The notes beneath the pieces were generated by a model. The model had not been told where the DNA came from and searched no databases. It saw only the letters and a list, made by a program, of their open reading frames with translations. From assembly GCA_002840645.1 (NCBI GenBank), contig PHBO01000014.1, forward strand, positions 62,001 through 126,000: DNA of 64,000 bases, read 5' to 3'. Numbering within the stretch: position 1 is the stretch's first letter; each line of letters opens with the position of its first letter. Source of the DNA: Candidatus Cloacimonetes bacterium HGW-Cloacimonetes-3. Its GTDB lineage: Bacteria; Cloacimonadota; Cloacimonadia; Cloacimonadales; Cloacimonadaceae. Made by a program: the position numbers and the translations under genes. Of the stretch, positions 5,994-39,949 are shown in pieces.

Positions 5994-6440
5994 TTACAGC
6001 TCAAGCACATAAGTTTCATAATCATAAACAATCGGCAACAAACCCGCTTCCACCGCCTTATTGATGCTAATGCACGGTAGCTCCTGCGCATAGATATCAT
6101 CTCTGGTGAGAGTCTTAAGGTCTATTGTGGAATCTGCTTTCGCCATATTGTACATCATTTTTAGGTATAGTGCACTCCAAGACCGCACCGGTTGCCGATG
6201 GTTTTCCCGCAGGGCATTGTAGCGCACCCGATACAGATACAGGTCATTCTGAAACTCCTTGCTGGGCTTAATAGCAAACAGCGCAGTGGTGATGCTTCCC
6301 ACCCGCACATTTTCTGAAGTAAGCTTGGGGTAGGTATTCCGTCGGGCATACACCCTGCCAAGCTCTTTACTATAGCAATACACCAAGCCATCCGCTTTGC
6401 CGGTATAGCCCGCCAATCCGTATTGAAAGCTAACTTTCAT
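5994..6440 (-). CDS. Hypothetical protein, 148 aa, two-copy family (paralogue of 39110..39556)
   Basis: About 119/148 identical residues to the second copy, same length. Confidence 0.75.
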   Translation of the reverse strand: MKVSFQYGLAGYTGKADGLVYCYSKELGRVYARRNTYPKLTSENVRVGSITTALFAIKPSKEFQNDLYLYRVRYNALRENHRQPVRSWSALYLKMMYNMAKADSTIDLKTLTRDDIYAQELPCISINKAVEAGLLPIVYDYETYVLEL

Positions 6441-6490
6441 GTTTTCACCTTCCTTTTATCGTCTAACGTTTAACCCTTAACTTCTAACGT

Positions 6491-6520
6491 CTATAATACT
6501 ACGGGGGACAAAAACACATA
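6491..6520 (-). promoter_or_regulatory. Conserved motif upstream of the 148-aa ORF (copy A)
   Basis: ctataatactacgggggacaaaaacacata; matched by ctatagtattaagggggacaaaaaccacat at 39611..39640, upstream of the paralogue. Confidence 0.5.
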
Positions 6521-6675
6521 ATTTGCTCACAAACCCCAAATTATTTTTTCTCCTTCCCACTTTTTCACCCTCATCACTTTGTTACTCCATTACCTCATTA
6601 CCTCATCTCTCCCTCATTACATCATCACTTTGTCACTTCTTCATCACTCTCTATAATCCATGGTCTTGCCCAGGA

Positions 6676-6740
6676 GATTCCCTCGTGATTCCCTCGTCCC
6701 ACCTCGGAATCACGAGGGGTTCACAAGGGCATCACGCGGC
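6676..6740. repeat. 65-bp palindromic element, copy A
   Basis: Aligns ungapped with 39759..39823 (about 58/65). Contains a perfect 13-bp stem CCCTCGTGATTCC/GGAATCACGAGGG (6680..6718). Confidence 0.8.
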
Positions 6741-6859
6741 GTTATAGGCATGGATGAGAGATTTATCGCTTATGGTATTTAGCCAAAGCAAGATGTGCTG
6801 TTATTCCTCCCTTGAAATTGGGATGAAATGGATTTTGCCAAGCCATGAATTTGCAACAG

Positions 6860-20746: not shown

Positions 20747-20937
20747 ATAACCTCTGATTCGCGTATAAATGAAGTTATATTATTGTCAAGTACAATTGGT
20801 GATGCTGGGAGAAACCACCGCTTTTGGTAATTGCTTCATGGTGTTTATGTGTATGCATACATGTCAACATATTTCTGGAGTTTCAGTGGCAATGCTCATT
20901 TTCTGCGCTTAAAAGTTGGCTTAGCACAATCATCTTC

Positions 20938-21013
20938 CTTGCTTGCATTACTTATGCATTACGCATGAACTACGGATGGGATGCGTATTTCATGCGTAAT
21001 TCTATAGTAATTC
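20938..21013. repeat. 76-bp dispersed palindromic repeat, copy 1
   Basis: About 66/76 identical to 31286..31361; stem ACGCATGAA...TTCATGCGT. Confidence 0.8.
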
Positions 21014-21050
21014 CTGATGGGAAGCATCAACAAAAGGCTATTGAATAATC

Positions 21051-31251: not shown

Positions 31252-31285
31252 ACTGGTAATTCCCTTTTCTTAACTATGCAATACA

Positions 31286-31361
31286 CTTGCTTGAATTACT
31301 TAAGAATTACGCATGAATTACGCATCGCATCCGTATTTCATGCGTAGTTCTATAGTTATTC
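31286..31361. repeat. 76-bp dispersed palindromic repeat, copy 2
   Basis: Aligns with 20938..21013 without gaps; central 17 bp is nearly the reverse complement of the copy 1 core. Confidence 0.8.
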
Positions 31362-31479
31362 GGTAAAGTAACACTTACCTTCTTCGGTTGGTTGTGGCGT
31401 GATAGATTAACTAAAACTGATTGACAAAAATACAGGATATATTCCCTTGAACCTAAAGTGATAATACTGGAGAAATGAT

Positions 31480-39109: not shown

Positions 39110-39556
39110 TCATATCTCATTACTGTAAGCCTCATACATGTAAACCTCCGGTAATATGCCTGCCTCTACTGCCTTTTTCACGCTGATGCATGGCAAATCA
39201 TGCATATAGATATATTCACGGGTAAGTGTCTTAAGATCAATGCCGGGATCTGCCTTCGCCATATTATACATCAATTTCAGGTAAAGCGCAGACCATGAAC
39301 GTACAGGATGATTTTGATTTTCCCGCAGAGCATTATAGCGAGTCCTGTATAAATACAAGTCATTCTGAAACGCCTTACTTGGCTTTATTGAGAATATAGC
39401 AGAGGTGATACTTCCCACCCGCTCGTTTTCTGCTGTAAGCTTGGGGTAGGTATTCCTCCGGGCATACACCCTGCCAAGCTCTTTGCTGTAGCAATACACC
39501 AGACCATCCACCTTGCCGGTATAGCCTGCCAATCCGTATTGAAAGGTAACTTTCAT
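39110..39556 (-). CDS. Hypothetical protein, 148 aa, two-copy family (paralogue of 5994..6440)
   Basis: About 80% identical and the same length as the first copy. Confidence 0.75.
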   Translation of the reverse strand: MKVTFQYGLAGYTGKVDGLVYCYSKELGRVYARRNTYPKLTAENERVGSITSAIFSIKPSKAFQNDLYLYRTRYNALRENQNHPVRSWSALYLKLMYNMAKADPGIDLKTLTREYIYMHDLPCISVKKAVEAGILPEVYMYEAYSNEI

Positions 39557-39610: not shown

Positions 39611-39640
39611 CTATAGTATTAAGGGGGACAAAAACCACAT
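39611..39640 (-). promoter_or_regulatory. Conserved motif upstream of the 148-aa ORF (copy B)
   Basis: ctatagtattaagggggacaaaaaccacat; see 6491..6520. Confidence 0.5.
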
Positions 39641-39758
39641 TTCGGGACAGATTTCGGGAAAATCTTCAATTTCCAATTATTTTTTCCATCCATCTACTTC
39701 TATCATTTCCGTACTTCACCAACACATCACCTGCTATACTCCGTCATCATCCGGAGGC

Positions 39759-39823
39759 GATTCCCTCGTGAACCCCTCGTCCCACCCGGGGATCACGAGG
39801 GGTTTACAAGGGCATCACGTGGC
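39759..39823. repeat. 65-bp palindromic element, copy B
   Basis: Aligns with 6676..6740; stem CCCTCGTGAACCCC/GGGGATCACGAGGG (39763..39801), 13/14 paired. Confidence 0.8.
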
Positions 39824-39949
39824 ATTAAACACAGGAAGGAGAGGTGGGAATGATTAGTAGCGTTTAATATCAGAGCAGTATCAAGTCAGTCAAAACAGGG
39901 ATGCGAAAGTTACTCTTGACACGCATAGCCCTTCCATAGAATACACACC

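Follow-up and report, generated by a model that had tools for sequence, protein, structure and literature searches.

Genes for a family of small basic proteins in Cloacimonadota are linked to phased palindromic arrays dispersed through the same genomes

The 64,000-nucleotide stretch of DNA analysed here (the window) carries two distant copies of a gene for a 148-aa protein, each preceded by a short promoter-like motif and, further upstream, by a palindrome, and the locus raises the question of which of these three parts belong together and what links them. The source is a 2.68 Mb Cloacimonadota assembly (G000). Copy A of the gene lies at 5994..6440 on the minus strand, with its motif at 6492..6515 on the same strand (coding strand GTTTTTGTCCCCC-GTAG-TATTATA) and its palindrome, an array of 11-bp units (GATTCCCTCGT), at 6642..6760 (core 6676-6741). 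Copy B has the same arrangement, with the gene at 39110..39556 and the motif at 39612..39635, both on the minus strand, a second TGTCC repeat further upstream of the motif, and the array at 39725..39843 (core 39759-39824). All of the parts described by the first-pass annotation are therefore present at both places, and its observation that the open reading frame (about 80% aa identity), motif and palindrome are retained while the spacer has diverged is borne out: the two proteins are 80–81% identical, and the DNA aligns in two blocks, one spanning the ORF and motif (500 columns, 77%) and the other covering the palindrome (119 bp, 78%); the spacer between the two blocks does not align. The copies differ by a dS of 1.11 and a dN of 0.14 (dN/dS about 0.13), indicating that the 148-aa protein is under purifying selection. 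The array of copy A has four BLAST places in G000, three of which adjoin family genes. The gene is not limited to the two copies first recognised, and there are 26 matches to the family protein in G000.

The motif can be set apart from the other two components. A pattern of TGTCC-N13..15-TGTCC followed by a TA-containing stretch is found at 29 sites in G000 and at none with a reversed-pattern control, and only a minority of these sites precede family genes; most are upstream of other genes, among which, from their sequences, we recognise htpG, mreB, gcvPA, an epimerase, purS and tilS. The GGGGGACAAAAAC motif is thus a genome-wide promoter-like element that is not specific to the gene-palindrome unit, and the motif of copy A is related to this TGTCC-repeat class. 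Because it precedes many unrelated genes it is not a third member of the unit, which rules out a three-part cassette; what stands of the proposed three-way linkage is the association of ORF and palindrome, which exceeds chance and in which the two co-vary across about 50 genomes. The element AAATCTGTCCCAAAA-N-TTCTGTCCCCCACACTACTATGAAGG, present before housekeeping genes (29 G000 sites, e.g. L195, L202, L205, L216 and L219), is a candidate promoter class of the Cloacimonadota phylum.

The palindromes share a distinctive architecture, in which direct copies of an 11-bp unit are followed by inverted copies in the same register, extending over about 65–125 bp. Their sequences vary from one family gene to the next, and there are many array sequence families per genome, so that the palindrome is conserved in its architecture but not, as the first-pass annotation might suggest, in its sequence. 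With a detector whose settings were chosen on these data, and whose thresholds were loosened after the first scan, 400 kb of G000 contains 24 period-11 arrays with inverted copies versus 2–5 at each of six other periods, and there are none in 100 kb of shuffled sequence; the palindrome is therefore not a chance occurrence. The same detector finds 18 period-11 arrays versus 3–15 at other periods (the 15 at period 9) in G001, a genome of the same genus in a single contig of 2,246,820 bp that we presume to be Ca. Cloacimonas acidaminovorans, and no period-11 excess in the sample genomes G082 and G106. The arrays are nearly all intergenic, with five inside predicted ORFs in 1.14 Mb, and part of the array families have an end motif, with CTTCCTTGC on the left and the inverse of it on the right; CTTCCTTGC/GCAAGGAAG ends are enriched in part of the families, with hardly any enrichment in G001. 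There is no Rfam match at the arrays, which rules out a known RNA element, and we found no description of such arrays in the open-access literature, where absence is no proof.

Many arrays lie away from any family gene. Within the window these include an array at 20934..21024 with three direct and three inverted copies of the unit ATTACGCATGA and the end motif CTTCCTTGC, the best match of which is the array upstream of the paralog L037, and a second at 31284..31366 belonging to the same sequence family. Variation among the G000 arrays of the ATTACGCATGA unit occurs at three positions as mostly A-T or G-C swaps, and folding these arrays, without standardising element orientation, leaves mismatches at some fixed positions in the majority of copies; conserved mismatches like those of REP hairpins were rejected as a general feature, being found within one array family and not in common among families. 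At L049 1500-1790 (contig C11 of G000), two close arrays of different sequence families lie between methyltransferase and ABC transporter genes with no family ORF nearby.

The dispersed arrays correspond to those beside the paralogs of their own genome. Relative to a null of equal-sized array sets from other genomes, matches to own-genome paralog arrays are seen for 23 of 29 dispersed arrays in G000 (null mean 5.1; the 23 include matches to the array of paralog L030, added by hand once seen to be missing, and the count is 18 of 29 without it), 14 of 17 in G001 (null 0.12), 6 of 7 in G010 (null 0.74) and 2 of 8 in G044 (null 0.11). The palindrome is thus scattered genome-wide without the ORF, as a generic repeat would be, yet the dispersed families match the paralog-upstream arrays of the same genome and so represent the other half of the pairing rather than an unrelated generic repeat. 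Copy number follows the gene as well: core sites of the L042 array average 29.5 in genomes with the L042 subfamily versus 3.4 in those without (Mann-Whitney p 0.00016), although 8 of 27 genomes lacking the subfamily at the threshold used still have the array core (41 sites in G004), most genomes being draft assemblies in which the absence of a gene may be a gap. In G032 and G033, members of the taxonomic family of G000 with one family copy each, there are no arrays in 257 kb, where the rate seen in G000 would predict 17.7.

Several observations tie the gene to the palindrome. An array lies no more than 700 bp upstream of 48 of the 110 family members with enough upstream sequence and downstream of only 1 of 118, and control periods give an upstream array for just 1–6 of the 110. 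As background, among genes preceded by 200 bp or more of intergenic DNA, 38 of 199 have an array there (19%; Fisher p 9e-6 against the family), and for about half of the family genes no array is called upstream. Across about 50 genomes protein identity correlates with array similarity (Mantel r 0.605, 0/2000 permutations), and does so with the largest subfamily removed (r 0.392, 0/2000 permutations). In that largest subfamily, L042, the neighbouring genes differ between genomes and the array family is kept (as seen at the 12 of its 20 loci that could be read), and the vertical retention of flanking DNA is therefore rejected as the cause of matching arrays in this subfamily. Divergent members elsewhere in the order are mostly without arrays, L246 being one likely exception.

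The protein itself is matched in all but one of the 50 genomes (49 of 50) from the taxonomic family of G000, and its profile matches 65 of 125 genomes in a sample of the phylum. When a small alignment was scanned against 85,462 species, only Cloacimonadota were recovered, and its public-genome relatives are titled Candidatus Cloacimonetes or Cloacimonadota. There are no homologues in Pfam, NCBIfam, PHROGs, PADLOC or PDB beyond scattered noise: copy A has no Pfam, PHROGs or NCBIfam match, a profile search of PDB gave nothing credible, the PHROGs matches are scattered and weak, and no structural or sequence homologue with a DNA-binding fold was found. A search for phage or plasmid relatives gave no match, and an origin from either was rejected on that ground; a defence-gene identity was also rejected, the PADLOC matches being scattered, weak and to single members. 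Two AlphaFold predictions are of low confidence (pLDDT 47.5 and 40). The family is basic (median pI 9.52, net charge +8), has an invariant Tyr70 without an HxH motif, and gives a dN/dS of about 0.04–0.23 in tested close pairs with finite dS. There are two subtypes, assigned by motif pattern; type II proteins are about 150–160 aa, and upstream arrays accompany 2 of 14 type II versus 46 of 96 type I genes. Near the type II paralogs L038, L039 and L044 is a short ORF beginning MNTxLIKxLAKELATxxNKLVNIPLV..., possibly a partner gene.

Of the systems already described, the closest is that of the RAYT (REP-associated tyrosine transposase) genes and their REP/REPIN repeats, in which repeats and protein co-vary and the number of repeats correlates with whether the cognate gene is there (PMC2817692, PMC3116915). 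Here too a genome encodes several paralogs, and each of them has palindromic repeats dispersed between genes as well as one copy next to its own gene; the dispersed repeats match that copy; repeat and protein co-vary in the Mantel tests; and array copy number correlates with cognate gene presence. There are also differences. By published description a RAYT gene always has two inverted REPs around it (PMC2817692), whereas the arrays are on one side only. A RAYT is marked by an HUH (HxH) motif with a catalytic tyrosine and by the Y1_Tnp domain, whereas the 148-aa family has no conserved histidine column (maximum 27%), and for the 74 members whose Pfam matches were listed PF01797 (Y1_Tnp) is not one of them. 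The repeat consists of 11-bp units, unlike a REPIN, and the family is under strong purifying selection, unlike rayt genes, which are described as fast-evolving. The protein paired with the arrays is thus apparently unrelated to RAYT. The arrays resemble MITEs in length (about 65–125 bp), inverted structure, intergenic location and multiple copies, and in the end motif shared by part of their families, but no parent transposon with the array ends was found, and the interior of the arrays consists of 11-bp units. In type III toxin-antitoxin systems (ToxN/ToxI) a small protein gene also lies behind a repeat array, but there the repeats are long tandem direct repeats rather than palindromic 11-bp units, and the repeat RNA shares a transcript with the toxin gene; moreover, a promoter-like motif stands between array and gene in copies A and B, there are dozens of solitary arrays per genome, and the PADLOC results give no more than the weak matches noted above. 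MatP/matS and ParB/parS each pair one chromosome-organising protein with many short intergenic sites, as here; they differ in that here a genome has many paralogs with a separate site family for each, and in that the array sequence turns over rapidly between species.

We therefore consider it rather probable that the type-I members are small basic proteins that recognise cognate arrays, the pair behaving like a RAYT and its REPINs without being one. Each type-I protein would be dedicated to one array family, with roughly three 11-bp units in direct and three in inverted orientation, spaced by one helical turn, and would bind its cognate units cooperatively on a single face of the helix. Within that family, the array preceding the protein's own gene would act both as operator and as master copy, and those dispersed among other genes would be further sites for the protein; protein and array sequences would change together, and the arrays would multiply within a genome. 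We infer the DNA binding, the autoregulation, and a spread driven by the protein and not by a helper enzyme.

As another reading, which seems unlikely to us, Y1 (IS200/RAYT) transposases from other places in the genome might move the arrays as REPIN-like elements, the 148-aa gene being an accessory or a passenger. PF01797 genes are present in 7 of 8 genomes checked, and 5 of 25 such genes have a family gene within about 2.5 kb, against 0.66 expected (p 0.0006, at a distance chosen after the matches had been seen); in G047, array, family gene and Y1 gene stand in a row at both L299 2483-4081 and L300 2250-3825, loci with 75–80% DNA identity, and an array accompanies a Y1 gene without a family gene at a third locus (L298). 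However, G044 has no PF01797 match and still has dispersed arrays, some of which match its paralog; in G001 no array is found within 1 kb of any of the three Y1 genes, two of which are interrupted by in-frame stops, whereas the array families there correspond to three 148-aa paralogs; and none of the six Y1 genes in G000 has an array within 2 kb. A division of labour between the family protein and Y1 transposases is possible.

We judge it quite improbable that the gene inserts together with its array as a single mobile cassette, of which the dispersed arrays would be decayed or deleted remains. Such a cassette would fit the finding of the same subfamily and array family at different loci in different genomes, the two G047 loci with array, family gene and Y1 gene, and a position of conserved synteny, flanked by a carbamoyltransferase gene and a TolC-like operon, where G001 has array and gene and G000 has the array alone. 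But an array downstream of only 1 of 118 genes means that such a cassette has no paired ends, several families have far more dispersed arrays than genes, and no target-site duplications were apparent by eye in the array flanks inspected. A simple accumulation of generic repeats in long intergenic regions where family genes happen to sit, with no functional link, is already disfavoured and in our estimate also quite improbable: the arrays are indeed intergenic, near many unrelated genes, and the background is 19%, but such accumulation accounts neither for the upstream/downstream asymmetry, nor for the correspondence of array sequence with paralogs, nor for the lack of arrays in the low-copy genomes.

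A broader reading may be entertained tentatively: that proteins with no relation to HUH transposases arrived independently at recognising and propagating helically phased palindromic repeats of their own, converging on a REPIN-RAYT lifestyle with about ten or more paralog-array pairs per genome. The proposed pairing of type-I proteins with cognate arrays would add a second kind of gene family that has dispersed repeats of its own, and what keeps REPINs and their partners together would become testable in an independent case. The many natural candidate binding sites per paralog would provide a large natural set for studying a protein-DNA recognition code. For the Cloacimonadota, a phylum frequently found in anaerobic digesters, it would give a testable function to an unannotated protein family that is present throughout one of its families.
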